47,684 bases of DNA, taken from positions 1 to 47,684 of the IMG/VR virus record IMGVR_UViG_3300013099_000029, one strand, 5' to 3'. The stretch is from a virus. Below, one piece after another: positions 1 to 16,333 of the stretch. The first letter of the stretch is position 1. Each line of letters starts with the position of its first letter. Under the pieces are notes generated by a model. It ran no database searches and was not told where the DNA came from. It saw only the letters and a list, made by a program, of their open reading frames with translations. The position numbers and the translations under genes were made by a program.

Positions 1-336
1 AAGAACGAAATCGAACGAATTAATGCAATCGTCAATCAAAATAGAAAGCTTATAGTGAACGATAAAAAAACATGTTTTAATCATAGACTTTCTTGTATCA
101 GTGCAGATATTGACTTGTCTTTATTCGTTACTGATAAGAGTCAAGCTAAAACAGCTCAACAGATTGCACGTATAGCGCATACAACAGCTAAAAGAGTTGA
201 ACAGCATATAGCTATAGACTTAACGTGTACAGACAAGAAATCGCGCATTGACTTGAAAGCTAATGTAATAACTATCAACAAGAAAAATGCTGATAAGAAA
301 TATTACATAAACGTTAAACGTCTTTATGCTAAGTAA
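1..336 (+). CDS. Hypothetical protein, 5'-truncated by the window edge
   Basis: The reading frame is open from base 1 to the TAA at 334-336, so the start lies upstream of the window; an in-frame GTG at 55 is a weaker alternative. The visible 111 residues are rich in Lys, Asn and Ile, with a basic C-terminus. A stretch around Gln-Ile-Ala-Arg-Ile-Ala followed by Thr-Ala-Lys-Arg-Val could be a short helix-turn-helix, but that is only suggestive. I recognise no family. It is more AT-rich than genes after 2000 and belongs with the next small gene to a unit ended by the terminator at 580. Confidence 0.6.
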   Translation, partial: KNEIERINAIVNQNRKLIVNDKKTCFNHRLSCISADIDLSLFVTDKSQAKTAQQIARIAHTTAKRVEQHIAIDLTCTDKKSRIDLKANVITINKKNADKKYYINVKRLYAK

Positions 337-413
337 AAGCATTTAACAGCATTAACTAAAATACTAATCAAAACAGCATTACAGATAAGTGATTAAATCG
401 AAAGTGAGTTATT

Positions 414-566
414 ATGTCAAATAAAGAAATGCTAATTGCAAGATGTCTTGACAGTCTAACAACTATTGAATACTTACTTAAAGATAAAGAATTGTTCTTG
501 TCTTTACATGCTGAACAAATCTTTTATGACTTACTAAAAATTGAGCGTTATTTGCAAGATGTATAA
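414..566 (+). CDS. Small hypothetical protein, 50 aa
   Basis: ATG at 414 with a modest GTGAG-type ribosome-binding site; stop TAA at 564-566. The product is a short, mostly helical acidic-to-neutral protein (Leu, Asp and Glu rich) without Cys, membrane segment or known motif. It is the last gene before the terminator at 580-612 and shares the AT-rich composition of the gene at 1-336. Function unknown. Confidence 0.5.
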   Translation: MSNKEMLIARCLDSLTTIEYLLKDKELFLSLHAEQIFYDLLKIERYLQDV

Positions 567-579
567 TTTGAGCGTTACT

Positions 580-612
580 AAAATGCTGATAATCTGATTA
601 TCAGCATTTTTT
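580..612 (+). terminator. Rho-independent terminator
   Basis: ATGCTGATAAT (583-593) pairs perfectly with ATTATCAGCAT (597-607) around a CTG loop, followed by a run of T to 612 and preceded by A residues. This closes the left-hand AT-rich unit. Because of the A run the hairpin could also work on the opposite strand. Confidence 0.85.
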
Positions 613-725
613 AGATAGTAAAAATGAATATCATTCAGTTATTTAATAGTGATTTCAATTAGTAAAGAGTAATTCAGTTATTATAGCTTGCTTATAAAAC
701 ATGAATAGCAAAACAAAAAGTAAAG

Positions 726-1067
726 ACTGATTTATTTAATGAATCTCATTCAGTCACTAAATCAAATTTATTAAATAATCCCGATTTATTTGCTGAATCT
801 CGTTTATTCCGTGAATTTCATTTATTTAATGATTCCGGCAATATAAACTGAAGCACATTCATTAAATTTCGTGGATTCATTTTATAATCGACATTTATCT
901 TCTGAAGATCATTCAGTTTATGAATTTTCAATATTCGCTGATTATCATTCATTTTATTTTGAATATTCATTTTATAATCATCATTCATTCGCTGAAGCTG
1001 ATTCAGTTAATAATTATCATTTATTCGTTGAATTTCATTTATTTAATAAACCCCATTCAGCCAACGC
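726..1067. repeat. Degenerate 18-bp tandem repeat tract
   Basis: The tract can be cut into about eighteen 18-bp units such as CATTTATTCGTTGAATTT, CATTTATTTAATAAACCC, CATTCATTCGCTGAAGCT and GATTCAGTTAATAATTAT. Most units begin with [C/G]ATT[T/C]A and have GAA/AAT near the middle. One unit near 839 appears to be 19 bp, which shifts the reading frame. Translated, the units read as hexapeptides (HLFVEF, HSFAEA, DLFNES), but the frame is interrupted by stops and there is no good start, so I treat it as non-coding. A further isolated copy with a perfect inverted repeat GATTCA-TGAATC lies near 1330. Iteron-like, recombinational or decayed-gene origins are all possible. Confidence 0.7.
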
Positions 1068-1381
1068 TCCAGCCGCCTCGGATGGTATACCGGCATATTA
1101 CTGAACCTTAGGACCTTCGTTGTCATCAATATAGGTTTCCCGTAATCCGGCAAAATGCCGGTCATAGAGAATGAACAAAGGTGGAGCAGCTATTCCCCTT
1201 ACTCCCACCTTTATATGTATATCTGATCAAGCCCTTCGCTATTATCTTCTAACGTCCGCTATCTCAGTAAGCACCTAGGCATATTAACAGCTATGCCGGT
1301 ACATACATTGGGTACCTTTTAGACGGTGATTCACTTAATGAATCCGCTTCATAACTATTTTAGGTATGCCAAAGAAAAGTG
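1068..1381. other. Gene-free region with several inverted repeats
   Basis: No convincing ORF. It holds compact inverted repeats: CCGGCA-AAA-TGCCGG near 1147-1161, AAAGGTGG pairing with CCACCTTT near 1178-1214, GGCATA pairing with TATGCC near 1277-1296, and GATTCA pairing with TGAATC near 1329-1345. The word TGCCGG / CCGGCA occurs four times. None has a clear T-run, so these are not typical terminators; they lie directly upstream of the strong promoter at 1382 and might bind regulators. Confidence 0.5.
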
Positions 1382-1411
1382 TTGACACGGTATACTGGTT
1401 CATGCTATGCT
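1382..1411 (+). promoter_or_regulatory. Strong sigma70/sigmaA-type promoter P1
   Basis: TTGACA at 1382-1387, an 18-bp spacer, and TATGCT at 1406-1411 with an extended -10 TGC. The -10 overlaps an inverted repeat TATGCT-AC-AGCATA (1406-1419), a possible operator. The predicted transcript begins close to a perfect 8-bp hairpin, ATACTCTC / GAGAGTAT (1417-1437), which could protect the 5' end. It would drive the leader and the early genes from 2066. Confidence 0.75.
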
Positions 1412-1885
1412 ACAGCATACTCTCAAATAGAGAGTATGAGTATCCCACCTCGCTCTTTGAAAATTGATTAAGCAACATTCCTCAGATAACAAGACTCTGA
1501 GTGGTCAACTTTAATTAAGTGGTTTTCTCAAATCTGTATAGCTCTCGGAGGAACGCACATTCCATTAAGAAAAGTCAATCGCTGGTGGAACTAAATGAGT
1601 GGTCTTCGAAAAGCGTAAACGTTGAAGGGAACAGATAGGCCGGAGGCATCGACAAGATGAACTCTTAAAGGCGGCTCTTACATATTGACGAGAAAATCGA
1701 GAAACTCGGGAGGACACGAAAACTCCATTAAAGAATCCTCAGAGAGGAAGCATTGAACCTACCGTAGTCGTTGCTTATGACGTATCTCAAGATCAAGATA
1801 CAATGTACTGGAAGGTAAGTCGGTATGGACTTGACCCTGCATTCAAATACAATCGCTACCCCGGTACACGTTGCTTTAAGTAACG
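1412..1885 (+). ncRNA. Long structured leader RNA or embedded non-coding RNA
   Basis: There is no credible ORF between the promoter and 2066. GCTCTTTGAAAA near 1452-1463 resembles the boxA antitermination element of rRNA leaders. TAAGCAAC (1469-1476) is perfectly complementary to GTTGCTTA (1770-1777) and could close a domain of about 300 nt. Local hairpins include CTCAGA/TCTGAG (1481-1501), TCCTC/GAGGA (1736-1748) and GGTAAGTC/GACTTGACC (near 1813-1836). A readthrough-promoting leader, or a phage structured RNA carried in the 5' region, are both possible; I cannot assign a named RNA family. Confidence 0.45.
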
Positions 1886-1961
1886 ATGATCAGTGGAGGT
1901 AACTCTAAGAGGATAACCCACGAAGCATATCTTACTTACCTACCTTTGTGTGAGTTAAGAC

Positions 1962-2060
1962 AGAAGGTTGGTACATGCGTAAGTGTGTACCTCCTTCTCT
2001 GTATTCATCACTTGTTGGTGGATAGAGAGAAGGAATACTCCTTCACATACATAGGAGGTA
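1962..2060 (+). promoter_or_regulatory. Leader hairpin carrying an anti-Shine-Dalgarno
   Basis: AGAAGG (1962-1967) pairs with CCTTCT (1993-1998), and GGTAC (1970-1974) pairs with GTACC (1987-1991). Inside the 3' arm, TACCTCCT (1988-1995) is perfectly complementary to AGGAGGTA (2053-2060), the ribosome-binding site of the gene at 2066. The same bases can therefore either close the hairpin or mask the ribosome-binding site. A second hairpin with wobble pairs lies at about 2003-2025. Confidence 0.5.
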
Positions 2061-2065
2061 AGAAA

Positions 2066-2239
2066 ATGTCAGTACTGGAGCCTAAATGGTATCATTTTCC
2101 CAAAGAAATGATATGTACCAGGGTTTTACATTGCATAGTGTGCAATGAGGTATGGGGTGTGACTAAAGATTACACGCATCCCAGTGTCTGTCCGTGCTGT
2201 TTAGATGATAATTTCTTGTACTTAATGGAGGTGATATGA
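2066..2239 (+). CDS. Small zinc-ribbon protein, 57 aa
   Basis: Start at ATG 2066 is chosen because AGGAGGT lies seven bases upstream; the frame is open further upstream but without a ribosome-binding site and across the leader hairpins. The protein has a Cys-x2-Cys near the middle (CIVC) and a second Cys-Pro-x-Cys (CPCC) near the C-terminus, a typical zinc-ribbon pattern. It is the first gene after the long leader and overlaps the next start by ATGA. No specific function can be assigned; a host- or nucleic-acid-binding role is a guess. Confidence 0.75.
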   Translation: MSVLEPKWYHFPKEMICTRVLHCIVCNEVWGVTKDYTHPSVCPCCLDDNFLYLMEVI

Positions 2240-2433
2240 AAGAGAAGCGACCACCAAGACGAGTCAAGATCAGAGTTCCTCATCATCAGAAGATCAAGGA
2301 CTTGTTCAAACTCCACGAAACGTACAATGACGAAGACGAAGATGGAAAATACTTTGATCGTCATTACCTGAGAAATTCCACCGCAACGATTAGTAGAACA
2401 TGGAAAAAGCGGTGGTCTGAGTCCGTGTTCTAA
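2236..2433 (+). CDS. Small basic hypothetical protein, 65 aa
   Basis: The start overlaps the upstream stop (ATGA) with AATGGAGGTGAT as ribosome-binding site. The N-terminus is very basic (Lys/Arg in roughly half of the first 15 residues), followed by an acidic Asp/Glu run and a basic C-terminal part with two Trp. No known motif. Probably translationally coupled to the zinc-ribbon gene at 2066. Confidence 0.7.
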   Translation: MKEKRPPRRVKIRVPHHQKIKDLFKLHETYNDEDEDGKYFDRHYLRNSTATISRTWKKRWSESVF

Positions 2434-2448
2434 TGCTCACTTTCGATC

Positions 2449-2553
2449 GGTGGGACAATGTTCATAGCTGTCATTGTCCCACCACTTCTTGAAGCTAATC
2501 AGCACATCGTTGGTTGGTTTCAAGATGTAAACTCATAAATAGGAGGTAAGAAT
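2449..2553 (+). promoter_or_regulatory. Paired-hairpin leader cassette (first copy)
   Basis: GGTGGGACAATG (2449-2460) pairs perfectly with CATTGTCCCACC (2472-2483), loop of 11 nt. CTTGAA (2488-2493) can pair with TTCAAG (2519-2524), enclosing GCT-AATC-AGC. The next gene's AGGAGGTAAGAATATG follows. No T-run follows either stem, so it is not a classical terminator. It is the divergent first member of a series upstream of most genes to 8300. Confidence 0.6.
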
Positions 2554-2991
2554 ATGAAAAAGGTTGATGTAGTATATTATGCTGCAAATGGTGGTCTCAA
2601 TCTCAATTTCGAAGCCGATTTAGCGGTAATAATGAGAAAACACGGTCTCGTATGTGTCGGAAGTGGAATGATGCTTGCTGAAGGAGCAAGAGATATGGAA
2701 TTCATACTGGGAACTATTAATGTCAAGGAACTTACTGATTCCTGCAACGTATGGACTGACAGTGGAGATGATTATGTGTATTTCACTAAGTGGGACAGTT
2801 TTTACCGCTGGTTGAGAGCAGCTGGTTGGGACAACGAAGAACAATGGGAAGAAGAAACGCACACATCGTGGAGCGATCTTCAGGGAAACCCATTCTTTGT
2901 GGTTAGTCAGCAAGTATTTATCCTCAAGAAAGAGGATATGAAAGACGAACCGATTAAGAGGGCTTATCCCATTGATTGGAATGAGTTCTGA
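2554..2991 (+). CDS. Hypothetical protein, 145 aa
   Basis: ATG 2554 has AGGAGGTAAGAAT upstream. The protein is acidic, with several Trp in a central Trp-Asp-Glu-rich segment (around residues 80-110) and no Cys-x2-Cys, membrane segment or nucleotide-binding motif. The N-terminal KKVDVVYYAANGGLNLNFE stretch looks like a beta strand and turn. I do not recognise a family. It sits between two hairpin leader cassettes and so may be translated from its own processed mRNA unit. Confidence 0.8.
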   Translation: MKKVDVVYYAANGGLNLNFEADLAVIMRKHGLVCVGSGMMLAEGARDMEFILGTINVKELTDSCNVWTDSGDDYVYFTKWDSFYRWLRAAGWDNEEQWEEETHTSWSDLQGNPFFVVSQQVFILKKEDMKDEPIKRAYPIDWNEF

Positions 2992-2993
2992 TA

Positions 2994-3079
2994 CCTGCTT
3001 GTGATGCTTACTTGGCGGTGAGCATCACTGGGAGTTATCACAATGGTAGCTTCAAACTCACAATATTAGGAGGTAAGTT
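2994..3079 (+). promoter_or_regulatory. Paired-hairpin leader cassette
   Basis: After the word CCTGCTTGT, GTGATGCT (3001-3008) pairs with AGCATCAC (3021-3028). The second hairpin pairs GGAGTTA with TAGCTTC (two wobbles) around the loop TCACAATGG; that same loop recurs in the cassette at 5478 although the stem bases differ. TTAGGAGGTAAGTTATG follows. Confidence 0.65.
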
Positions 3080-3742
3080 ATGTCTAAGAAAGAATTGACA
3101 AAGGCGGAGATCGTGGCTCAGTTGACAGAACTGGGTGTGTCCTTCAACAAGAAGGTTGGAATCAAGGTTCTTCAGGAACTGCTGAATCATGAGCTGAAGG
3201 AATCGGGAAAGCCCACTGCGAAGCCCGCAGCGAAGCCCACTCCGAAGCCTGCAGCGAAGCCCGCAGCGAAGGAAAAGGAGAAAGTTCCTTTGACAGCGGA
3301 GGAGATCGCAGCGGTAACGGAGAAGTACAAGAGAGAATGTCCCAGCTTCGGTATCCAGGATCTGAAAGACGCCGGGTGCAACGACACATGCCGTAAAGCA
3401 CACAAGGCAATGTTCGAAGCATGTTCGGAGGTGTCGAAACCTGCGAAGAAAGCTCCTAAAGAGAAGGGAGCTGGAATGACAATCTTTGGCCATCAGGCTA
3501 AAGCTGTCAGCGGTCGTATCGATGCAGCCATCCTGTCTGGGCCTATGACTTACAAGGAGATTGCTGATCTCATCACCTCAGAGATTGAGGGAACTTGTAC
3601 AGTCAACCGTGTGAAGGCTCACATTGAGAAAGACCTGAAGATCGGTCTTCGCACTGGCAATGTGATCATGGCCATCTTTGATCTTGATAAGGACGCAAAA
3701 GTAACATGCGGAATGATCAAGAGCAATAAGAAGGCTGCGTAG
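3080..3742 (+). CDS. Probable DNA-binding protein with Pro/Ala/Lys linker, 220 aa
   Basis: The N-terminal 40 residues (KAEIVAQLTELGV, VLQELLNHEL) resemble a SAP-like two-helix motif. A Lys-Pro-Ala repeat linker spans about residues 43-66. Two Cys-containing segments follow, then from residue 130 a winged-helix-like domain (MTYKEIADLITSEIEG, VNRVKAHIEKDL). Chromatin- or genome-binding is an inference from this architecture; the gene at 21801 has a similar helical head, Lys/Pro/Ala-rich linker and helical tail. The gene is less AT-rich than its neighbours, partly because of the repeated codons of the linker. Confidence 0.75.
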   Translation: MSKKELTKAEIVAQLTELGVSFNKKVGIKVLQELLNHELKESGKPTAKPAAKPTPKPAAKPAAKEKEKVPLTAEEIAAVTEKYKRECPSFGIQDLKDAGCNDTCRKAHKAMFEACSEVSKPAKKAPKEKGAGMTIFGHQAKAVSGRIDAAILSGPMTYKEIADLITSEIEGTCTVNRVKAHIEKDLKIGLRTGNVIMAIFDLDKDAKVTCGMIKSNKKAA

Positions 3743-3751
3743 TAATGAACG

Positions 3752-3859
3752 GGAGCAGAGAGTTTAAGGAGACTTTCTGCTCCATCCTACAGCACATTCG
3801 AAAGAGTGTGTTGTAGGATGGGATTTCATCTCATCAAACATACACATAGGAGGTAAGAT
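3752..3859 (+). promoter_or_regulatory. Paired-hairpin leader cassette
   Basis: GGAGCAGA (3752-3759) pairs with TCTGCTCC (3776-3783). Immediately after, ATCCTACAGCACA (3784-3796) pairs with TGTGTTGTAGGAT (3807-3819), 13 bp with one wobble. No T-run. The strong ribosome-binding site AGGAGGTAAGATATG begins about 30 nt later. Confidence 0.65.
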
Positions 3860-4051
3860 ATGACAAACTTGGAGCTGTGTGCCAAACATGACATCTCATA
3901 CTGTTTCTTTAAGAGGGTGGTATTGTTCTGTTACAACACCCTCAAAGAAGGACGAGAAAACTTCGAGAACGAAAGTATGGATGCTCAAGCCGAAGAATCT
4001 ATTCGGGTTGCTCGATCAATCATCTCCTTAGGAGGACTCAGACATGTTTAA
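3860..4051 (+). CDS. Small hypothetical protein, 63 aa
   Basis: ATG 3860 follows AGGAGGTAAGAT. The protein is short with a hydrophobic centre (CFFKRVVLFCYNTL) that is too short and too charged at its edge for a confident membrane segment, and an acidic second half. Its stop overlaps the next gene by eight bases, so the two are probably co-translated. Function unknown. Confidence 0.7.
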   Translation: MTNLELCAKHDISYCFFKRVVLFCYNTLKEGRENFENESMDAQAEESIRVARSIISLGGLRHV

Positions 4052-4181
4052 CAAAGAACTCCTTAAGAAATGGCAACAAGGGAACAAAATAGGTTGGTTC
4101 GACAGGGCTGTTGAATTTATATCTTGCGTAGTATTGCTTTCCTTGATGTATCTCCTCACGGTAGCCGTGTTCTGCCTGTAG
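4044..4181 (+). CDS. Small single-pass membrane protein, 45 aa
   Basis: ATG 4044 overlaps the end of the upstream gene and has TTAGGAGGACT upstream. A basic, Trp-containing N-terminal half (ELLKKWQQGNKIGWFDRA) precedes a clear hydrophobic segment from about residue 24 to the C-terminus (Leu, Val, Ala rich with Cys-Leu at the end), giving one membrane span. Function unknown; membrane-acting early phage proteins often affect the host envelope or superinfection, which here is only a guess. Confidence 0.65.
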   Translation: MFNKELLKKWQQGNKIGWFDRAVEFISCVVLLSLMYLLTVAVFCL

Positions 4182-4189
4182 TAAATAAT

Positions 4190-4266
4190 GCTTGCTATGC
4201 TTATGTATAGCTCAATAAGCATAGCTGGGAGTGTTTACTCCGCCAACACAACAAAGGAGGTAAGAT
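4190..4266 (+). promoter_or_regulatory. Paired-hairpin leader cassette
   Basis: GCTATGCTTAT (4194-4204) pairs perfectly with ATAAGCATAGC (4215-4225). GGAGT (4228-4232) pairs with ACTCC (4237-4241) around GTTT. The ACTCC strand could instead pair with GGAG of the ribosome-binding site in AAAGGAGGTAAGATATG downstream. Confidence 0.65.
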
Positions 4267-4659
4267 ATGAATCAATTAGCAGAAGCGGTGAAAATCTCAC
4301 GTGCCTGGATGCAGACAAGAATGGAACGTCAAAGTTTCATCCGTCGCATGAATCAAGGAATAGAGGGTCTTATTCCGCATATTGTATTCTATGCAATGAA
4401 CCCGACATTCTTCCTTGATAAGGAAGTATCAAAGGGGAACTTGAATAGAACCCATAAAGTGGTTCTCATACTCAGAGCCCGTGATTTGGAGCATGTGTTT
4501 TACATCATGCAAGCTGAAGTGTGGAGCCCAGAGGGTGAAGCAAGTGAGTTGATTCGAGGTCTTGGATTATATCACACATCCATGTCAGTTGGTGATTGTG
4601 TGATGCAGTATCCACACAAGCTGTATCAGGTTGACTCTGTAGGATTTAAAAGAATGTGA
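4267..4659 (+). CDS. Hypothetical protein, 130 aa
   Basis: ATG 4267 has AAAGGAGGTAAGAT directly upstream. Mixed alpha/beta protein; the central segment (THKVVLILRARDLEHVFYIMQAEVW) alternates like beta strands, and the N-terminus is basic and helical. Only one Cys, near the C-terminus (VGDCVMQYP), and no recognised domain. It lies between two near-identical leader cassettes. Confidence 0.8.
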   Translation: MNQLAEAVKISRAWMQTRMERQSFIRRMNQGIEGLIPHIVFYAMNPTFFLDKEVSKGNLNRTHKVVLILRARDLEHVFYIMQAEVWSPEGEASELIRGLGLYHTSMSVGDCVMQYPHKLYQVDSVGFKRM

Positions 4660-4661
4660 TT

Positions 4662-4737
4662 CCTGCTTGTGATACTCACTGGGAAGTGAGTGTCACTGGG
4701 AGTAATTACTCCGACAACACAACAAAGGAGGTAAGAT
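4662..4737 (+). promoter_or_regulatory. Paired-hairpin leader cassette
   Basis: CCTGCTTG, then TGATACTCAC (4670-4679) pairing with GTGAGTGTCA (4686-4695) around TGGGAA; then the perfect palindrome GGAGTAATTACTCC (4699-4712); then GACAACACAACAAAGGAGG and the start codon. Compared with the copy at 5478 the first stem has a compensated base pair (C-G here, T-A there). Confidence 0.7.
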
Positions 4738-5472
4738 ATGAGTGAAGCTAATGGCAAGAGCAAGAAATTTGACCTGGTTACTAAGCTGATTCAAATGGCT
4801 ATGGATGAACGTACCCCGCCTGAAGAAGCCCATAACGCAATGGTCAAAGCAACCGCCATCATGACCAAAGAAAAGATAGCGATTGCGGAAGTCATGCGAA
4901 CCAAAGAACAGGCTGAAGAAGCTGTCGTTGAGGATAAGGTGAAGTTCACTTACGGCGACACTAATCAGAAATGGGAACGCAGCCTTCTCATGGCAGTAAG
5001 CAAACCATTTGACTGTGAATGTATCCTGCTCAATTCATACAAACCTGGTACATACAGATCGATGTCATGGGATAGAGGAGCTTTCATCGGACATCCCACC
5101 GATGTTGAAAACTGCAAGTATTTCTTTGGGTATCTGCAATTCACTATCGCTGGCATGATTCGTAGGTGTAACTTTCGAAAAGTGGTTGAGAAAGACTCTT
5201 ACGGAGCTGGTGTTGTACTACGTGTCGGTGAGCGATTGAAGGAGATGTTCAAGAAAGTGGATGACTCTCTTCCTTCTGACACAAAAGCTGTAATGGTTTT
5301 GAAGAAGGATGCAGCAAAGTCCAAGTTCAAGGAGCTTTACCCACACACAAAATCAGTTGCCTCACGTAGGACTACTGATTGGAATGCCCGCAGCAAGGGG
5401 TATAAAGATGGTGGTAAAGTCGCTCTGCGAACGGGTGTAGGAGGAGGGGCAGCAACAAGTACACTCAATTAG
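4738..5472 (+). CDS. DUF2786-type protein, 244 aa
   Basis: The N-terminal 45 residues (VTKLIQMAMDERTPPEEAHNAMVKATAIMTKEKI) match the DUF2786 pattern: a helix, a Thr-Pro-Pro-Glu-Glu-Ala turn and a second helix ending in a Met-x-Lys-x-x-Ile segment. The remainder is an alpha/beta domain (about 65-200) such as usually follows DUF2786, then a basic, Gly-rich tail. The family occurs in phages and bacteria without an established function. Strong AAAGGAGGTAAGAT ribosome-binding site. The basic C-terminus suggests nucleic-acid contact, which is inference. Confidence 0.8.
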   Translation: MSEANGKSKKFDLVTKLIQMAMDERTPPEEAHNAMVKATAIMTKEKIAIAEVMRTKEQAEEAVVEDKVKFTYGDTNQKWERSLLMAVSKPFDCECILLNSYKPGTYRSMSWDRGAFIGHPTDVENCKYFFGYLQFTIAGMIRRCNFRKVVEKDSYGAGVVLRVGERLKEMFKKVDDSLPSDTKAVMVLKKDAAKSKFKELYPHTKSVASRRTTDWNARSKGYKDGGKVALRTGVGGGAATSTLN

Positions 5473-5477
5473 TGATT

Positions 5478-5555
5478 CCTACTTGTGATACTTACTGGGA
5501 AGTAAGTGTCACTGGGAGTAATCACAATGGTTACTCTATACAAAGGAGGTAAGAT
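5478..5555 (+). promoter_or_regulatory. Paired-hairpin leader cassette
   Basis: CCTACTTG, then TGATACTTAC (5486-5495) pairing with GTAAGTGTCA (5502-5511) around TGGGAA. GGAGTAA (5515-5521) pairs with TTACTCT (5531-5537) around TCACAATGG, the same loop as in the cassette at 2994. AAAGGAGGTAAGATATG follows. Confidence 0.7.
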
Positions 5556-6479
5556 ATGTTTACAGCAGAACAGGAGATTGACATCATTACCCAGGTTAGA
5601 GAAGAACACCCGGACATAGGTTTCCCAGATGTTTTCCGCTCCCCTATGTGGTATGGGAGAATGGGAAAGCAGCAAGTGGATGACTGGAGTGTTATCATCG
5701 GAAGAGTGCCCGTGTTCAATGAAGCGGGTTTCGAAACCGATGAGTTCGTGGATGAAGCATGGAAGCCGTGCTCAAAGGAATATCAACTGGTTAGGCATGA
5801 GGTTGCATTGCACCTGTTCGAAAAGGCAATGGAATCGGAAGACATCAAGGTATATGGCCAGTGTGATATATCCGTAGAGCTTATCAACGGCGGCCGACGG
5901 TGCTACATCACAGCAGACTTCCCTGAATGTAAGGAAGAGTTGAAACCAGGGAGACCGCTGACACCAAAAGCAGGTGTTCGCAACTCAAATGATCTTACCC
6001 TTGAGTTCTCACGTTGGTTTGGTGCAATGGAGCTGGTATGTGCAAATGGCATGGTAGCTTTCAAGATCAATCAGAGTGCCTCAAAGAAACACCGACAGAA
6101 CTTGGACATTGACTTCGAGATCAAAGGTGTTATCGAGGGCATGAATGATTTTGCGGAACAGACTGACATCTGGAAGAACTGGGTTGATGTGCAGTTGGCA
6201 TCGGCTGATGCTGAAGTTATCATGGCAGCATTGCCCTTCGGTTCTCGTCACAATGAAGAAATACTGGCATTACCTGAGACAGGCACAGGTGATAAAGTAT
6301 CAGATTGGTTAGCTGGTGGTAAAGTTAACCTTTATGATATGTATGGTATCTACACTCAATTCCTCACTCACAATGTTGAATCTGACATGGTTCGAGTGAC
6401 AAAGGGTGAAGAAGTGGCCAGGGTTTTTCATAACTACGAACAGGTTCTACAAAGATCGGCGAGAAAATCGGAGGGATAG
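5556..6479 (+). CDS. DUF932-like protein, 307 aa
   Basis: The middle and C-terminal parts carry the pattern of DUF932 phage/plasmid proteins: GVRNSNDLTLEFSRWFGAMELVCANGM (about residues 136-162), a helical span, then a Tyr-Asp-x-Tyr-x-x-Thr-x-Phe-Leu-Thr-His segment (about 265-280). Full-length members are about 300 residues, so this one looks complete. The biochemical role of the family is not established; it is common on mobile elements. ATG 5556 has a near-consensus ribosome-binding site. Confidence 0.75.
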   Translation: MFTAEQEIDIITQVREEHPDIGFPDVFRSPMWYGRMGKQQVDDWSVIIGRVPVFNEAGFETDEFVDEAWKPCSKEYQLVRHEVALHLFEKAMESEDIKVYGQCDISVELINGGRRCYITADFPECKEELKPGRPLTPKAGVRNSNDLTLEFSRWFGAMELVCANGMVAFKINQSASKKHRQNLDIDFEIKGVIEGMNDFAEQTDIWKNWVDVQLASADAEVIMAALPFGSRHNEEILALPETGTGDKVSDWLAGGKVNLYDMYGIYTQFLTHNVESDMVRVTKGEEVARVFHNYEQVLQRSARKSEG

Positions 6480-6481
6480 TT

Positions 6482-6700
6482 ATGACAAAACCTATGCTGT
6501 ACTTCAGTAGAGATTGGTTAATGCAGTGGCCTGGTGTTCAAAAAGCATTGAAGGAAGACATTACATCCTTCTATCAGAAGTACCCATACCATGCAGAATG
6601 CACCGAGATAGAAATTGAAGCTATGTCTTCGATTGCTAACCGGGGAAAGGTTTTGTCCATTGAGTTAGACAATGGTGATTTCATCCTAAAGAACGAATAA
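6482..6700 (+). CDS. Small hypothetical protein, 72 aa
   Basis: Starts two bases after the DUF932-like gene, with GGAGGGATAGTT overlapping that gene's end as ribosome-binding site, so it is probably translationally coupled. Contains a Trp-rich N-terminal segment (RDWLMQWPGVQ) and an acidic beta-like C-terminal half. No recognised family. Confidence 0.75.
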   Translation: MTKPMLYFSRDWLMQWPGVQKALKEDITSFYQKYPYHAECTEIEIEAMSSIANRGKVLSIELDNGDFILKNE

Positions 6701-6779
6701 AGGAGTTACAACCTGTAAGCGTGAGGTGTTTACAGGTTGTTGCTTGTCTATTCTGGCAAGACAACAAAGGAGGTAAGAT
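6701..6779 (+). promoter_or_regulatory. Paired-hairpin leader cassette
   Basis: ACAACCTGTAA (6708-6718) pairs perfectly with TTACAGGTTGT (6730-6740), then TGC followed by TTGTCT (6744-6749) pairing with AGACAA (6759-6764). AAAGGAGGTAAGATATG follows at once. The stem sequences differ from other copies while the layout is kept. Confidence 0.65.
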
Positions 6780-7121
6780 ATGGTAGATAAAACAGAGGTT
6801 AACATTGAAAAGTTGGTAAACCATGTTTTAGATGGTTGGGATATGGACGCCTTGCATGACTTCGCCAAAATCAAGCTGTGGGAACAGTACGATGCCGATA
6901 ACGAAGCTTTCTTGGCAGATTGGAAGGAAGAAATGAGTGACCAAGAAGATTTGATGGAAGAGGCTTTGTTCAACAATCAGCTTGATGAGGTAAATCAGGC
7001 ATTCAGTGATCTGGAAGGGCTATTGCCACCTGTTGGTATGAAGCACAGGGCTTTGTTTAGAATCATGTGCTTGGCTTTATCGGAGTTCTTTGTTGCCCAC
7101 TATCAAAAAGAGGAGATATAA
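6780..7121 (+). CDS. Acidic hypothetical protein, 113 aa
   Basis: ATG 6780 follows AAAGGAGGTAAGAT. Strongly acidic and almost entirely helical by composition, with Trp-Asp and Asp-Glu clusters over residues 18-75, no Cys in a pair and no membrane segment. Small acidic phage proteins can act as DNA mimics or bind host enzymes, but nothing in the sequence proves that here. Confidence 0.75.
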   Translation: MVDKTEVNIEKLVNHVLDGWDMDALHDFAKIKLWEQYDADNEAFLADWKEEMSDQEDLMEEALFNNQLDEVNQAFSDLEGLLPPVGMKHRALFRIMCLALSEFFVAHYQKEEI

Positions 7122-7122
7122 C

Positions 7123-7362
7123 ATGTTGTTTCAAGTACAGGCAAAAAGTAAAATGTTTGGTTCTTTCCCTTTAGACATGCTTAGGTATGATTGTTGTACC
7201 CCAGCAAATTCGGATGATGCTGTTAAAATAGCATCAACACTTAGGGGAGAAAGAATAACCGAATTACCTATCATTCAATTGAGAACACATGAACCAAGGC
7301 TTGATATAACGCCTGCAAGATGGGAGTCATTCGGTTGGAAAGTAATTGAAGGGAGGAGATAA
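7123..7362 (+). CDS. Small hypothetical protein, 79 aa
   Basis: The start at ATG 7123 is preferred over an upstream in-frame ATG because AAGAGGAGATATAAC provides the ribosome-binding site and the upstream codons overlap the previous gene. The protein looks mixed alpha/beta with a basic C-terminus (GWKVIEGRR). No recognised family. Confidence 0.7.
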   Translation: MLFQVQAKSKMFGSFPLDMLRYDCCTPANSDDAVKIASTLRGERITELPIIQLRTHEPRLDITPARWESFGWKVIEGRR

Positions 7363-7444
7363 CTGCTTGTTAGACTTGTGCAGTCGGCATTTAGTGTACA
7401 AGTCTAACTGGGAGCAATCATGCTCCATACAAAGGAGGTAAGAT
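7363..7444 (+). promoter_or_regulatory. Paired-hairpin leader cassette
   Basis: CTGCTTG, then TTAGACTTGT (7370-7379) pairing perfectly with ACAAGTCTAA (7398-7407) across an 18-nt loop; then GGAGCA (7411-7416) pairing with TGCTCC (7421-7426) around ATCA. CTCC lies seven bases from GGAG of the ribosome-binding site and could mask it instead. Confidence 0.7.
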
Positions 7445-8032
7445 ATGAAAATGCAAGACTTAGTGGAGAGTTTATCGCTTCTGTCCCCTGGTAGTAAAGC
7501 ATCAGAAGACATGGCAAAGGGTGTAGTCCTAGGTGTGGTTAATCTTATCATGCTGACTACTCCGCTTAAATTACATGAAGTCTGGGAACATGTTATCCGT
7601 TGGATGCCTGATGATTTCAGAATTACTGCACTACCGTATGAATGGCTTGATATTGGGCAGCCCTTGTCTAACCACATGATACATGATCTTGAAGCTGGGC
7701 ATGTAATTTACTTTGATTACCTGCTCAAGGATCTTCCAGAAGAACAACTGGATGGGAGCCATGATGGTCGAAGTGTAAGAGACCAATTGCTTGGTCACTA
7801 CCTTCGTGAGGTGAGTCTCCTTAATATGTATGGTTTAGATATTGGGAAACCATCTCATAACATGGGTTCATGGAGACAGGCTGGCTCACAATCTATTGCC
7901 GAGTTCTGGGTCAATGATCTTTATATAGAAAATGACCCAAGAAACATAAACTGGCATGGCCAGAACACATCCCAGTGGTGTTATGCTGGTGCTATTTGTG
8001 TTCAAAATGGGCGTGTGTCCACTCACCATTAG
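7445..8032 (+). CDS. Hypothetical protein, 195 aa
   Basis: ATG 7445 follows AAAGGAGGTAAGAT. N-terminal helical region with a hydrophobic patch (VVLGVVNLIMLTTPL, about residues 28-43) that is short for a membrane span, then a His/Trp-rich C-terminal half (NINWHGQNTSQWCYAGAICV). No recognised domain. The next gene starts 11 bases downstream and is probably coupled. Confidence 0.75.
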   Translation: MKMQDLVESLSLLSPGSKASEDMAKGVVLGVVNLIMLTTPLKLHEVWEHVIRWMPDDFRITALPYEWLDIGQPLSNHMIHDLEAGHVIYFDYLLKDLPEEQLDGSHDGRSVRDQLLGHYLREVSLLNMYGLDIGKPSHNMGSWRQAGSQSIAEFWVNDLYIENDPRNINWHGQNTSQWCYAGAICVQNGRVSTHH

Positions 8033-8042
8033 GAGGTGATGT

Positions 8043-8225
8043 ATGAAGACATGGAAAATACCCTGTTCATGGGAAGTGTATGCTGTAGCAAAAATCAAGG
8101 CAGAAACACTCGAGGCAGCAATTGAAATAGCAGAGGATGATGATTTCCCCTTGCCCACTGAAACACACTATGTTGATGCTTCTTTTCTGGTTGATAAAGA
8201 TTTAGCAGAGCATATGGAGTTTTAG
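8043..8225 (+). CDS. Small hypothetical protein, 60 aa
   Basis: ATG 8043 is preceded by TTAGGAGGTGATGT. The first half reads as beta (TWKIPCSWEVYAVAKIKAETLEAAIEIAEDDDFPLP), a pattern seen in small phage proteins with a strand-helix layout such as DpnD/PcfM-like proteins; the match is loose. Acidic overall. Confidence 0.7.
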   Translation: MKTWKIPCSWEVYAVAKIKAETLEAAIEIAEDDDFPLPTETHYVDASFLVDKDLAEHMEF

Positions 8226-8230
8226 TATAA

Positions 8231-8299
8231 GTCACACTTGATGGGCATCGAAAGGTGTCCATCTGGTGGTACTTATGCCACAAACAAAGGAGGTAGGAT
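8231..8299 (+). promoter_or_regulatory. Paired-hairpin leader cassette with GNRA loop
   Basis: GATGGGCATC (8240-8249) pairs with GGTGTCCATC (8254-8263), including wobbles, around a GAAA tetraloop. GTGGT (8266-8270) pairs with GCCAC (8277-8281). AAAGGAGGTAGGATATG follows. Confidence 0.65.
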
Positions 8300-8503
8300 A
8301 TGGGACACACGGAAGCCTTAATAGATACAATTAGCCTATTAAACAAGCATGATATGGATTTCAAGAATGTGTGTGAGGTAATAATAAAGGCCTCTCTGTA
8401 TTGGACAGGGGCGGATGAACTCAATAACCCTGAGTTAAAAACAATGAGAACTTTAGCAAGGTTCTATCTTGAGGACCCTGATTACTTCATAACCCTGAGC
8501 TAA
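8300..8503 (+). CDS. Small hypothetical protein, 67 aa
   Basis: ATG 8300 has AAAGGAGGTAGGAT upstream. Helical, mildly acidic, one Cys. The last codons (GATTACTTCATAACCCTGAGC) partly repeat just after the stop (CTGATTACTTC), hinting at a small duplication at the 3' end. No recognised family. Confidence 0.7.
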   Translation: MGHTEALIDTISLLNKHDMDFKNVCEVIIKASLYWTGADELNNPELKTMRTLARFYLEDPDYFITLS

Positions 8504-8532
8504 AAGAACCTGATTACTTCTAAGGAGGAAGC

Positions 8533-8748
8533 ATGAAACGATTCACAATGGAGAGTGAGATCATTATCACCTACAATGAAGAGGATTTCCATTTCCCAGA
8601 TTCAACATACGACGGAGATGCATTTATGGCAGTTCTGATTGAACAGGAACTGAATAAGATGGGCAAATTGGAGATGAAGCTCCGCTCCTGGGGAAATGGT
8701 CATGTAAGTATTAGGGTGCATGGTAAAGGAATAAAGGATATCAAATAA
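8533..8748 (+). CDS. Small hypothetical protein, 71 aa
   Basis: ATG 8533 follows TAAGGAGGAAGC. Acidic N-terminal beta-like half (SEIIITYNEEDFHFPD), then a helix and a strand ending in a basic Gly-Lys-Gly segment. Last gene of the hairpin-cassette region, followed by a promoter and a terminator. Confidence 0.7.
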   Translation: MKRFTMESEIIITYNEEDFHFPDSTYDGDAFMAVLIEQELNKMGKLEMKLRSWGNGHVSIRVHGKGIKDIK

Positions 8749-8752
8749 AACC

Positions 8753-8781
8753 TTGACATCCTTGAGGATCTGTTTTATGCT
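8753..8781 (+). promoter_or_regulatory. Candidate promoter before the attenuator-like element
   Basis: TTGACA (8753-8758), a 17-bp spacer, TATGCT (8776-8781). The -10 hexamer is identical to that of the promoter at 1382. It lies just after the stop of the gene at 8533. If active, its transcript would begin around 8788. Confidence 0.6.
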
Positions 8782-8810
8782 CTATTATAAGATGATAGAG
8801 CATAAAACAG
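8770..8810 (+). promoter_or_regulatory. 15-bp inverted repeat overlapping the -10
   Basis: CTGTTTTATGCTCTA (8770-8784) is perfectly complementary to TAGAGCATAAAACAG (8796-8810) with an 11-nt loop. In readthrough RNA it is a strong hairpin resembling the first hairpin of the upstream leader cassettes; in DNA it spans the -10 and predicted start site of the promoter at 8753 and could be an operator. Confidence 0.6.
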
Positions 8811-8828
8811 CATTTAAGGGAGGAAGAT

Positions 8829-8864
8829 ATGAAGAAGCCGGTTCAGAATAAATCAAATATCTGA
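8829..8864 (+). CDS. Possible 11-residue leader peptide
   Basis: ATG 8829 follows GGGAGGAAGAT at ideal spacing and reads MKKPVQNKSNI then TGA at 8862-8864. The ORF runs through the 5' arm and loop of the terminator and stops inside its 3' arm, so a translating ribosome would open the hairpin. That is the arrangement of a transcription attenuator. The peptide has no obvious regulatory codon run. Confidence 0.4.
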   Translation: MKKPVQNKSNI

Positions 8865-8880
8865 GCCGGCTTTTTCTTTT
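8835..8880 (+). terminator. Rho-independent terminator
   Basis: AAGCCGGTTCAG (8835-8846) pairs with CTGAGCCGGCTT (8861-8872) with one wobble, followed by TTTTTCTTTT. A classical strong terminator. It overlaps the 11-codon ORF at 8829, so termination may depend on translation. Confidence 0.9.
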
Positions 8881-8991
8881 GGCCTGTTCGAGGAACGGAC
8901 ACTACCTCTGCAACTCAAACCGGACAACCTTCACTTAGAACCATGGGCAAAACGAGGCGAGGACAAACCACTAAAAAGGGAGACCGGCAAC

Positions 8992-9195
8992 ATGGCAGGA
9001 AGAAACGTTTTCAGAACAGCGGCAGATGAATGCTCAATGGATATGTGGGGAATGACCAGAGCCCGGGCGGTACATCAACACATCTGTATAAATTGCAGGG
9101 AAGAAGTACATCCAACAGGCATATCTATTTATAGTTTGACAAACTATAAAAGCACTGGATTATGTGAAATTTGTTATAAAGATATAATGTTTTAA
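8992..9195 (+). CDS. Small zinc-ribbon protein, 67 aa
   Basis: ATG 8992 follows AAGGGAGACCGGCAAC. Has Cys-x2-Cys (CINC, about residues 33-36) and Cys-x2-Cys (CEIC, about 58-61) with about 20 residues between, a zinc-ribbon spacing. It is the first gene after the terminator at 8880. Function unknown. The roughly 110 bases between terminator and gene hold no further ORF with a good start. Confidence 0.7.
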   Translation: MAGRNVFRTAADECSMDMWGMTRARAVHQHICINCREEVHPTGISIYSLTNYKSTGLCEICYKDIMF

Positions 9196-9208
9196 TATAA
9201 GGAGTTAC

Positions 9209-9337
9209 CTTAGTTTGCTGTTTAAATCTGCACATCCTTTAAGTACAATCAACACTTCTTACCTCCGTTGCCGGATGCAATGAGTGTCCGGATAAGGGTG
9301 TGCAGAACTAAGAAGCAAACATAAAAAGGAGGTAAGA
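9209..9337 (+). promoter_or_regulatory. Pseudoknot-like leader with a perfect anti-Shine-Dalgarno
   Basis: Nested helices: GTTTGCT (9213-9219) with AGCAAAC (9314-9320), and CTGCACATCCTT (9228-9239) with AAGGGTGTGCAG (9294-9305), one wobble. Inside lies CCGGA (9271-9275) with TCCGG (9287-9291). In the loop, TCTTACCTCC (9257-9266) is perfectly complementary over 10 nt to GGAGGTAAGA (9328-9337), the ribosome-binding site of the gene at 9340. This would form a pseudoknot that shuts off translation. I know of no named riboswitch with this layout. Confidence 0.65.
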
Positions 9338-9339
9338 CT

Positions 9340-9555
9340 ATGAACAAGAAGTTGTACAAGATACGAGTAAACTGGCACGGAGAAATCTATGAAGAACACT
9401 TTCATGCAACTTCTCCGGGTAGTGCTATGATGATAACATGTTCAAAAATAGCAAAGGATTTAGGCAAGACCACATCTTATGTACGAAAGTTCTTTCTATC
9501 GGGTAAAAATAACTTCAAGGTAGAGGAGGTACTGAATGAAAGTGGAGACAATTAA
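9340..9555 (+). CDS. Small hypothetical protein, 71 aa
   Basis: ATG 9340 follows AAAGGAGGTAAGACT. Basic protein; starts with a beta-like segment (KLYKIRVNWHGEIYEEHFHATS), then a helix with Cys-Ser-Lys-Ile-Ala and a basic region. Compatible with a small strand-helix phage regulator but no family is recognised. Its expression would be governed by the leader at 9209. Confidence 0.75.
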   Translation: MNKKLYKIRVNWHGEIYEEHFHATSPGSAMMITCSKIAKDLGKTTSYVRKFFLSGKNNFKVEEVLNESGDN

Positions 9556-9991
9556 ATATGCCTCTATTACAGATGAAGCTCCTGAGGAGATGACAGGAGA
9601 TGAAGATTACCCAGTCATCGGAAACAGCATGTCATCAGGGAATCGGCGAGAAATTCTCAAGAAATTCAAAGGGTTAAACCCTTATTGGAATTGCATAGAC
9701 AAAGCAGGGATTGTGCAAAGAGTGTTCGGTGGGATTGTTGTTTTAGGCGCATTTGATGTGTTCGATGAAATAGGAGAATACTCATATGGTTTTGATTACA
9801 AACCACCTTACATGTTTCATGCATGGGTAGAAAAGTACGGGGAGATATTTGACTTTGCACTTCCCGGTGTACTCGAAATAGCAAGAAAAACTATAGAATC
9901 GATAAATAGGGAGTCTGTTATATTAACTGGTGTTCCACCAAGTTGGTTACACTACAGTCCATGTCATGTAATGCATCAAATGATGATATAA
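9536..9991 (+). CDS. Hypothetical protein, 151 aa
   Basis: ATG 9536 overlaps the previous gene by 20 bases and follows GAGGAGGTACTGA. The central segment (GIVQRVFGGIVVLGAFDVFDEIGEYSYG) alternates like beta strands and is followed by a His-Ala-Trp-Val-Glu motif. Single Cys residues only. No recognised family. Confidence 0.75.
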   Translation: MKVETIKYASITDEAPEEMTGDEDYPVIGNSMSSGNRREILKKFKGLNPYWNCIDKAGIVQRVFGGIVVLGAFDVFDEIGEYSYGFDYKPPYMFHAWVEKYGEIFDFALPGVLEIARKTIESINRESVILTGVPPSWLHYSPCHVMHQMMI

Positions 9992-10000
9992 GGAGAAAAT

Positions 10001-10162
10001 ATGGATGAAATTACTCATTTGGTTGAAGGGGATTATTTAGATATATATCAATGCAATAATTGTGGTGCTCATGCAGATAAGCCTGAGGACATAAAACATC
10101 ATACTACTTGTAAACCCGGGGAATCTAAGAAATGGGAAAAGTTTTATAATGAAGGGAGGTAA
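10001..10162 (+). CDS. Small zinc-finger-like protein, 53 aa
   Basis: ATG 10001 follows ATAAGGAGAAAAT; stop TAA at 10160-10162, four bases before the next gene. Contains Cys-x2-Cys (CNNC, residues 18-21) and His-His-x2-Cys (about residues 33-37), consistent with a small zinc finger. Acidic N-terminal half, basic end. Function unknown. Confidence 0.7.
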   Translation: MDEITHLVEGDYLDIYQCNNCGAHADKPEDIKHHTTCKPGESKKWEKFYNEGR

Positions 10163-10165
10163 GAA

Positions 10166-10537
10166 ATGGAACAGGAACAGATTGAGAAAATTGCAAGTGA
10201 ACTTGATTCATGGTTGCAAGAGGCTATGGGAGATTGTGCCCACGGTGCTGCCTGTTTAGGTGGTACAGATGAGTACAGAAAATGGTTAAATACAAGTGGT
10301 AAAAGTATTCATGGTAGTTGCTTAACGGATGCGTATGCAGATCATTTATATAATGATATTGATACCTTACGTGATTTGCTTGGTGATCGGATTCACGATG
10401 AAGCGGCAGGGCACCCATATAATAGTCCCGAATTTAATAAGGACTTCATAGCTATTGCAGAAAAGATAGCGGAACACGCTCACCCAGCTTTGAAAGAAGC
10501 ATGTAAACAACTTGCAGACGCAAGGAGAGTAATATGA
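10166..10537 (+). CDS. Hypothetical protein, 123 aa
   Basis: ATG 10166 follows GGGAGGTAAGAA, which overlaps the previous stop. Helical acidic protein with a Cys/His/Gly-rich centre (DCAHGAACLGG near 25-35, HDEAAGHPYNSPE near 81-93) that might bind a metal. No recognised domain. Overlaps the next gene by ATGA. Confidence 0.75.
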   Translation: MEQEQIEKIASELDSWLQEAMGDCAHGAACLGGTDEYRKWLNTSGKSIHGSCLTDAYADHLYNDIDTLRDLLGDRIHDEAAGHPYNSPEFNKDFIAIAEKIAEHAHPALKEACKQLADARRVI

Positions 10538-11154
10538 TACCTAAATCAACCATTAATGAGGGAGCATCAGGCAAATGCGAAGTTATAAAATTCACCGTCA
10601 GTAAAAAGGATTCTGATTTCTTTAACATGAGACAAATGTTCAATGGACATAATAGAACAGTTAATCCTGGTGAATATACTAAACTGATAGACAAAGAAAA
10701 TATGTGTCTATGGATGTCAGACACCCCTGCTGAACTAAGAGACCATTATGACATGTATCATGAAGCAAAGGGTAATGTATTAATCAATGGGTTAGGGCTT
10801 GGTGTTGTGGTAGTTGCTTGTTTATTAAAAGAGGAAGTTGATCTTGTAGTGGTAAATGAAATCAATCCTGATATTATCAAACTTGTAGCTCCTCAACTGT
10901 TCAAACAATTCTCTCCCAAGAAATCCTTAATAATTAATGAGATAAGTGCCTTTGATTATCATCCCAAGAAGTTACGATTCGATACTATATGGCATGATAT
11001 TTGGGCAAACATCGATATAATAAATCACCCAGAGTATGTCAAACTTATGAGAAGATATGGACATTGGAAGAAATCGGGTGGTTTTCACAATTGCTGGGCT
11101 TATTATGAAATTAAACGGATGAAACGAGAAGAAAATAAAGGATGGTGGGGATGA
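10534..11154 (+). CDS. SAM-dependent methyltransferase-like protein, 206 aa
   Basis: Around residues 80-120 it has a Rossmann motif I region (NVLINGLGLGVVVVACL) and a following acidic strand (VDLVVVNEINPDIIKLV), the class I methyltransferase or spermidine-synthase layout, then FDTIWHDIWANI (about 150-162) in the motif IV position. The typical Asp of motif I is replaced by Asn (NGLGLG). The substrate is unknown. The N-terminal 75 residues are not recognised. It sits among orphan small genes and overlaps both neighbours. Confidence 0.65.
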   Translation: MIPKSTINEGASGKCEVIKFTVSKKDSDFFNMRQMFNGHNRTVNPGEYTKLIDKENMCLWMSDTPAELRDHYDMYHEAKGNVLINGLGLGVVVVACLLKEEVDLVVVNEINPDIIKLVAPQLFKQFSPKKSLIINEISAFDYHPKKLRFDTIWHDIWANIDIINHPEYVKLMRRYGHWKKSGGFHNCWAYYEIKRMKREENKGWWG

Positions 11155-11339
11155 AAATACTACTCTCGGGTATTATATTTTTACTGTTTATAATTGTAGT
11201 GCAGCTTTCACATATCAGGGTATCTTTGATGGACTGGAGACCCGTTCGTACATATCATTTTTATGATGAAAGATCATACGATGTATCGAGCGTGGATAAC
11301 CTTAATATATGTGATAGACTTTCAGAGAAGAGGAGGTGA
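11151..11339 (+). CDS. Small single-pass membrane protein, 62 aa
   Basis: ATG 11151 overlaps the upstream stop; an in-frame ATG at 11142 would add three residues. Residues 2-22 (KILLSGIIFLLFIIVVQLSH) form one clear membrane segment or uncleaved signal anchor, followed by a 40-residue polar, basic-ended domain with one Cys. Function unknown. Confidence 0.6.
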   Translation: MKILLSGIIFLLFIIVVQLSHIRVSLMDWRPVRTYHFYDERSYDVSSVDNLNICDRLSEKRR

Positions 11340-11343
11340 TAAT

Positions 11344-11550
11344 ATGCCTAAGTGTGATCGTTGCAAGTTAGAGTGTTTCACCATTATTATGTCCCGATTC
11401 AACACTCAAATGATATGTGATGATTGCGAAGACAAAGAAATGGCCCACCCGGATTACCAAAAAGCTGTCAATGCTGAAATAAAAGCTCTTTCGGGGGGTA
11501 ATCGCAACTTTGAGGGAATTGGTTTACCAAATAACCTACAAGGAAGATAA
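11344..11550 (+). CDS. Conserved zinc-ribbon protein, 68 aa
   Basis: ATG 11344 follows GAGGAGGTGATAAT; upstream in-frame ATGs lack a ribosome-binding site. Cys-x2-Cys-x3-Cys (CDRCKLEC) at residues 4-11, Met-Ser-Arg-Phe-Asn-Thr, then Cys-x2-Cys (CDDC) and the ending GNRNFEGIGLP. From memory, the MSRFNT and NFxGIGLP words recur in a small conserved phage and bacterial family of unknown function. Confidence 0.75.
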   Translation: MPKCDRCKLECFTIIMSRFNTQMICDDCEDKEMAHPDYQKAVNAEIKALSGGNRNFEGIGLPNNLQGR

Positions 11551-11551
11551 T

Positions 11552-12556: not shown

Positions 12557-12559
12557 TCA

Positions 12560-12763: not shown

Positions 12764-12788
12764 CAGGTACCTTATAACATGCTATAAT
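12760..12788 (+). promoter_or_regulatory. Consensus promoter P2 with extended -10
   Basis: TTGACA (12760-12765), 17-bp spacer, TATAAT (12783-12788), preceded by TGC. Both hexamers are perfect. The segment CATGCTAT around the -10 is shared with the promoters at 1382 and 21705. It begins the replication module and would drive the RHH regulator gene at 12828 onwards. Confidence 0.85.
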
Positions 12789-12827
12789 ATGCTATTAATT
12801 TAACTTAAATAAAAGGAGAATATCATC

Positions 12828-16222: not shown

Positions 16223-16333
16223 ATAACAACACTTCAAATTTCCTGCAACAAATTAGAGCAAAACTTTCTGGAATTAATCAAATGTATAAATTATTGAACA
16301 AGGGTTTTAATTCACTTTATTCAACAAGGATCT

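Follow-up and report, generated by a model that had tools for sequence, protein, structure and literature searches.

The window analysed here, the complete 47,684-bp record of an uncultured virus (IMG/VR record IMGVR_UViG_3300013099_000029), carries a recurrent RNA element in its early region. Ten gene leaders, all within one early transcription unit, form hairpins upstream of a Shine–Dalgarno (SD) sequence, and the element recurs in related phages, in keeping with what a first, sequence-only reading had proposed. The conserved unit is one long imperfect hairpin, not a hairpin pair, and selection on the leaders acts at the RNA level. The best explanation is probably that of processing or stabilising hairpins which split the early polycistronic transcript into separate messages. 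Cutting by the host RNase III is considered the most likely role, with about even confidence, given the resemblance to early sites of phage T7.

Hairpin leaders of the early unit

The unit runs from a promoter at about 1400 to a terminator at about 8880, both placed by consensus only. About 650 untranslated nucleotides (nt) lie downstream of the promoter, followed by a block of small genes that extends to the hairpin at 8831–8880. The gene junctions of this unit fall into two classes. In the first, the genes overlap or are separated by at most 29 nt, without a hairpin and with a variable SD. In the second, the gap measures 74–120 nt and contains one or more hairpins and a near-constant cassette, AAAGGAGGTAAGATATG. 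Junctions of the second class precede genes 2554, 3080, 3860, 4267, 4738, 5556, 6780, 7445 and 8300 (genes are designated by their first position), and a tenth leader of a similar kind precedes gene 2066 (gap 1962–2065). Outside the early region, gaps of leader length are few and, in the same pipeline, mostly unstructured. Five leaders (3080, 4267, 4738, 5556 and 7445) are recognisable paralogues, referred to as type A; "composite" denotes an inner stem together with its outer stem.

1382–1411, + strand: likely early promoter, TTGACA-18-TATGCT with an extended −10, sigma-70-like; among the best plus-strand matches of a consensus scan
1962–2068, + strand: leader of gene 2066; overlapping alternative hairpins 1962–1998 and 1992–2034, SD 2053–2058; E = 0.003, 18 bp
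2449–2556, + strand: leader of gene 2554; separate hairpins 2449–2483 (12 bp) and 2485–2529 (19 bp), SD AGGAGGTAAGAATATG; fold z −9.5
2989–3082, + strand: leader of gene 3080, type A; composite 2989–3040 (inner stem 3001–3028), alternative second hairpin 3031–3053, SD; the stop codon of the upstream gene lies within the outer stem
3752–3862, + strand: leader of gene 3860; hairpins 3752–3783 and 3781–3822 (16 bp), SD; E = 1.3e-5, fold z −7.8
4177–4269, + strand: leader of gene 4267, type A; composite 4177–4242 (24 bp; inner stem 4194–4225), alternative second hairpin 4228–4241, SD
4656–4740, + strand: leader of gene 4738, type A; composite 4656–4709 (22 bp; inner stem 4669–4696), alternative second hairpin 4699–4712, SD
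5472–5558, + strand: leader of gene 5556, type A; composite 5472–5525 (22 bp; inner stem 5485–5512), alternative second hairpin 5515–5537, SD
6695–6782, + strand: leader of gene 6780; composite 6695–6753 (24 bp; inner stem 6708–6740), alternative second hairpin 6738–6765, SD; E = 2.2e-6
7356–7447, + strand: leader of gene 7445, type A; inner stem 7369–7408, composite 7356–7421 (weaker outer stem), alternative second hairpin 7411–7426, SD
8225–8302, + strand: leader of gene 8300; composite 8225–8278 (22 bp), SD AGGAGGTAGGATATG; E = 4.3e-8
8831–8880, + strand: likely intrinsic terminator closing the unit, GAAGAAGCCGGTTCAG...CTGAGCCGGCTTTTTC followed by TTTT; from sequence reading and the hairpin list

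Direct inspection and shuffled controls both confirm hairpins and the SD cassette in all nine gaps for which they had been described. The motif AGGAGGTAAGATATG has six exact matches, and 17 at up to three mismatches against 2.0 expected. Hairpins with stems of at least 9 bp number 13 between 2431 and 8310, compared with 1–6 across 15 shuffles, and the fold z-scores of the nine gaps range from −2.5 to −9.5. Some finer details of the sequence-only reading need correction. The loops TGGGAA and TCACAATGG occur in two copies each. Its common leader start, CTGCTTGT, is exact in only three copies, no more than chance (19 of 100 shuffles), although an in-register variant stands in all five type-A copies.

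Two consecutive hairpins, thought at first to be the recurring unit, are literally present only at 2554 and 3860. The two hairpins of the 2066 leader overlap, and in the other seven leaders the second hairpin shares a strand with the longer composite, so that only one of them forms at a time. The long hairpin has about 18–25 bp and reaches from the upstream stop codon to some 20–30 nt before the start codon. In three relatives of the phage (G001, G022 and L203, described below), which carry one long hairpin, the composite is usually better by about 10 kcal/mol than the inner stem plus any second hairpin. The twin form is competitive only in the window, in leaders 3080 (composite −27.1 vs −26.3 kcal/mol) and 5556 (−26.7 vs −26.5 kcal/mol); of the seven window copies, five favour the composite by 2–11 kcal/mol. 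The second hairpin, not found in the relatives, was therefore rejected as a conserved part; it is an alternative fold specific to the window.

Conserved pairing and recurrence in relatives

Only five of the ten leaders, those of type A, align over their length, so a single alignment of all ten was rejected and covariation was counted on these five. Their composite consists, in order, of the outer stem (e.g., GTGATT/AATCAC), a C.T mismatch, 2 bp, a G.G mismatch, 2 bp, a T.T mismatch and the inner stem. Two conserved flanks, CTGCTT and TGGGAG, together with the adjoining bases, extend the inner stem in the same ungapped register. In the inner stem, all 50 cells are paired and six of the ten pairs show two-sided changes, a result reached by 0 of 500 shuffles. 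The whole composite (20 pairs, counted after the hairpin loops had been trimmed out before alignment) is 96% paired, with two-sided changes in nine of the 20 pairs (0/500 shuffles), and slid registers give 0 or 1 such pairs. For the outer stem alone, the values are 90% paired, three of six pairs and 24 of 500 shuffles. The sample is small, comprising five related copies from one genome, and the in-house shuffles, used in place of R-scape, ignore this relatedness. The claim that stem sequences change while pairing is kept nevertheless passed this examination.

That the selection acts on RNA is apparent from the comparison of strands. DNA palindromes would fold equally well on both strands. Of 39 gaps in the four early regions that bear leaders, 36 have the more stable fold on the mRNA strand (mean −6.4 kcal/mol, p = 1.3e-7); of 56 comparison gaps from other regions and relatives, 37 do (mean −1.85 kcal/mol). 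All gaps of 55–160 nt were taken for this test, by gap length and not by folding. Among selected leaders, flanked G.U pairs number 62 and A.C mismatches four.

These observations also bear on DNA-level elements, either mobile or recombinogenic cassettes like the stem-loops of T4 or palindromic operators. Leaders 4656–4740 and 5472–5558 are about 85% identical along their whole length, and the order of orthologous genes differs in one relative; however, the strong G.U excess and the absence of promoters from the gaps speak against such elements, and a purely DNA-level role is refuted by the strand asymmetry, which leaves this explanation very improbable.

A covariance model built from the five type-A copies recovered the other window leaders (E 4e-8 to 0.013). 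Among contigs fetched by the SD motif, it also matched a divergent phage of 80 kb, G001, with orthologues of 13 window genes (23–63% identity in matched stretches, in a different gene order) and ten or more hairpin leaders, whose SD is AGGAGGTAAGANATG. Profiles from the window and G001 proteins yielded about 20 further family members. The covariance model R1 is dominated by the SD and gave few matches in relatives beyond G001–G004; leaders there were found by gap-wise folding. Strongly structured gaps make up 12 of 15 in G022 (contig 3300017971_000294) and 7 of 10 in L203/G024 (3300027985_000627). The leaders of both have the layout seen in the window, with unrelated sequence and different SD sequences. 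Three independent relatives thus carry the device at 7–12 gene junctions each, with unrelated sequences, and the expectation that related phages with the same genes should possess it was borne out.

The distribution is not uniform. Structured gaps are few in G010, G011, G015 and G023 in the same pipeline, and almost lacking in five others (one in G008, none in G012, G013, G018 and G020), some of which are represented by short stretches. A helicase tree places the window, G001 and G022 in the same half, with poorly supported inner forks. Each genome has its own leader signatures (CATGAGAAATT and GGCATTGCCTCAATCAAATAACC in G022, GTTCGGTATAC...GTGGATCGAAC in L203), which suggests that leaders are copied or homogenised within genomes.

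A single-protein search for near relatives found only the near-identical contig L021, which has the same leaders and hence offers no covariation, and one distant polymerase. Many phages retrieved by the SD motif had single, unrelated matches. In INPHARED, no DNA match was obtained for positions 1–20000 of the window, and tblastn with the terminase and the 4738 protein gave none either; the DNA polymerase is only about 24% identical to that of isolates.

Possible roles of the hairpins

The window hairpins lack the defining features of several known kinds of element. As already argued from the letters, they are not intrinsic terminators: a T-run (at least five T in eight) is absent from all ten window leaders and from all 40 leaders measured, the second hairpin of the 3860 leader (ATTTCATC) being the sole borderline case in a loose scan. 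The promoter early stem-loops (PeSLs) of T4-type phages (Arbiol 2010; Comeau 2014, as cited in PMC4503421) likewise recur as stem-loop cassettes in the gaps between small early genes, and contain an early promoter. Unlike PeSLs, the window gaps showed no early promoter: by the sigma-70 consensus, the only one scanned, the unit has nine promoter-like sites against 14.1 in shuffles, and none on the plus strand inside any leader.

The SAS/ESAS elements of cluster K mycobacteriophages resemble the leaders in several respects: some of the non-structural genes have a repeated, near-invariant sequence at their SD and inverted repeats upstream of it, the versions are lineage-specific, and the function is unproven. 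However, the 13-bp SAS sequence beside start codons, GGGATAGGAGCCC, had no match at up to two mismatches. ESAS repeats conserve their sequence, and their authors found RNA pairing unsupported, whereas the window keeps pairing while the sequence varies, as the two-sided changes attest; ESAS was rejected on this ground. With Rfam 15, the window gave no match at the gathering threshold and chance-level matches only at a relaxed one. The suggestion of an undescribed family thus stands as far as Rfam is concerned, but the working principle resembles that of the known RNase III sites in the early region of T7.

Intercistronic processing hairpins are textbook knowledge for T7. The leaders of T7 genes 0.5, 1 and 1.3, which we take to hold RNase III sites (the T7 record was used without such annotation), form hairpins of 18–21 bp in the same script, with a span of 47–52 nt, a loop of 3–5 nt and 16–22 nt from hairpin to ATG. 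Window leaders have a median of 18.5 bp over 44 nt and their composites 22–24 bp over 54–66 nt; the figures for the relatives are 23 bp/58 nt (G001), 24/60 (G022) and 19/51 (L203). The layout agrees as well. Like T7 R0.5, R1, R1.1 and R1.3, the window elements are hairpins of about 20 bp, or two helical turns, with mismatches or internal loops, located between early-operon cistrons near the upstream stop codon and before the next SD and start codon, without a U-tract. In R1.1, which separates early genes 1.0 and 1.1, the hairpin measures 60 nt and includes an internal loop (PMC6121014). In contrast to T7, hairpins are packed more densely in the window (ten in about 7 kb), each is followed by a constant SD cassette, copies within the genome share sequence, and the lineage has an alternative second hairpin. 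The T7 sites are known to be cut, which is their defining feature; what the window hairpins share with them so far is the layout.

This match in geometry is the basis for proposing processing hairpins cut by the host RNase III. The earlier advice to examine RNase III dependence is supported. From the computed RNA-level selection, covariation, position, geometry and recurrence, we infer cleavage, its enzyme and a benefit to the messages. One promoter near 1400 would yield an early transcript of about 7.4 kb, in which, at every non-overlapping junction, a long imperfect hairpin (about 20 bp, 1x1 or 2x2 mismatches) would form in the stretch between the stop codon of one gene and the SD of the next. 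The host enzyme would cut each of them, as at the early sites of T7, and release messages of one or two genes. The new 3' ends would keep hairpin remnants and the new 5' ends would sit just upstream of an exceptionally strong SD, so that each message might be translated and stabilised independently. A phage-encoded RNase III was not found among 13 records (PF00636). One genome scan for the host gave no match, and a second only three contigs of metagenome-assembled genomes (Chloroherpeton, Syntrophaceae and Sulfuricurvum), too scattered to name a host.

Several points weigh against cutting by RNase III. The inner stem alone (10–12 bp) is short for this enzyme, the twin fold of leaders 3080 and 5556 lies within about 1 kcal/mol of the composite, and at 2554 and 3860 the two hairpins are separate. 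The same script, run on T7 as a control, recovered no standard hairpin before gene 0.7 or at gene 1.1 (R1.1, where the gap is longer). Geometry was measured on leaders chosen in part for folding well, and by itself it fits a cut site and a stabilising hairpin alike. Base-pair preferences in the proximal, middle and distal boxes are defined for E. coli RNase III, and cleavage here is a prediction.

The same positional and structural data would be expected if the hairpins remained uncut and acted as stabilisers and insulators. They would block exonucleases, serving the upstream gene as a 3' hairpin and the downstream one as a 5' barrier, and would keep terminating ribosomes from re-initiating, so that each strong SD works independently. 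Coupled genes of the same operon have no hairpin, which suits this role, and there is a precedent in B. subtilis, where mRNA is stabilised downstream of a hairpin, a ribosome-binding site or a bound protein that lies close to the 5' end (PMC3997798). However, the constant length of about two helical turns (19–25 bp) and the stop codon at the base exceed the needs of a simple barrier, and T7 elements of equal geometry are cut. Uncut hairpins are the next most likely reading, with clearly less confidence than cut ones.

It is unlikely that the leaders are binding sites for a phage or host protein, such as an autoregulator or an antitermination system like the HK022 put RNAs. The lineage-specific shared sequence looks as if made for one recogniser (TGCTTG...CTGGGAG with conserved T.T and G.G mismatches in the window, GTTCGGTATAC...GTGGATCGAAC in L203), and a boxA-like sequence lies in the operon's 5' leader at 1452–1467. 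Antitermination, however, needs no ten copies, one per junction; the likeness is also expected from copying of leaders within a genome, and the inner-stem sequences vary freely.

A conformational switch confined to the window lineage is possible, though we hold it improbable as an account of the element, and it rests mainly on two copies. Strand 2 (GGGAGTAATCAC...) would pair either with strand 1 to give the composite or with strand 3 to give the second hairpin. Strand 1 might be covered by a ribosome that ends translation of the upstream gene, which would favour the twin form; alternatively, the 3' product of a cut might refold so that the second hairpin caps and protects its 5' end. The near-equal energies in leaders 3080 and 5556 are consistent with a switch, as are upstream stop codons in or beside strand 1 and the second hairpin itself when strand 3 is shuffled (p = 0.015 and 0.010, respectively; Fisher combined p = 0.029 over the seven copies). 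Against it stand the absence of the twin form from the three relatives and the lead of the composite in most leaders and in most window copies. In its original version, in which CTCC of the second hairpin pairs with GGAG of the ribosome site, the switch was rejected, because the SD is as accessible in the window leaders as in shuffled ones (probability of being unpaired 0.43 vs 0.42). A repeated bistable device, in which the terminating ribosome or the cut chooses between a long cleavable hairpin and a short twin form, is likewise doubtful. If it existed, one 80-nt cassette would cut, cap and unlink messages gene by gene, and the freed strand would refold immediately ahead of the SD to cap and protect the 5' end.

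We know of no phage family with an intercistronic processing hairpin at nearly every separated early gene junction. The hairpin sequence diverges fast, while shape, position and, within each lineage, the SD cassette stay fixed. If the hairpins are cut, as favoured here, an uncultured phage family would split its early operon into messages of one or two genes with host enzymes, and dozens of natural variants would be available for learning what the enzyme requires; if not, they would form a rich set of insulating hairpin–SD modules.

Neighbouring elements and genes

The untranslated early leader at 1412–2065 (about 650 nt) contains the boxA-like GCTCTTTGAAAATTGA at 1452–1467, as in rRNA leader antitermination, and has no Rfam match; an antitermination leader and a structured RNA are both possible. 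Beside the first small genes, AT-rich degenerate repeats at 620–1060 (six copies, ATTTATTTAATGAATCTCATTCAG-like), with a matching flank in L021 at about 8000–8700, resemble an origin or a binding-site array. At 8753–8880, a promoter-like TTGACA-17-TATGCT has its −10 in a near-perfect 19-bp palindrome (8770–8810) with a terminator-like hairpin close behind, a candidate small RNA gene or operator.

The next unit opens with TTGACA inside a palindrome, TTTATAGTTTGACAAACTATAAA (region 9136–9342), followed by an outlying leader:

9205–9342, + strand: leader of gene 9340; larger structured region with the common SD cassette, containing TTCTTACCTCCG; z −4.2

This leader differs from those of the early unit in being longer. 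Since TTCTTACCTCCG is a perfect complement of its own SD, it is a real candidate for SD sequestration.

Genes of the 7-deazaguanine pathway (two radical SAM proteins, GTP cyclohydrolase I and QueC) occupy 21041–25169, with which the phage probably modifies its own DNA or a tRNA. A family A DNA polymerase with an N-terminal uracil-DNA-glycosylase domain is encoded at 27684–30341; its nearest counterparts among isolates, in Lysinibacillus phages LysYB1/2 and the Vibrio SSP002 group, are only about 24–25% identical. In a distant relative (L052, 10001–13620), the DNA polymerase match, of about 866 residues, takes up 3,620 bases and falls into two segments about 1.2 kb apart, a split that suggests an intron or intein.

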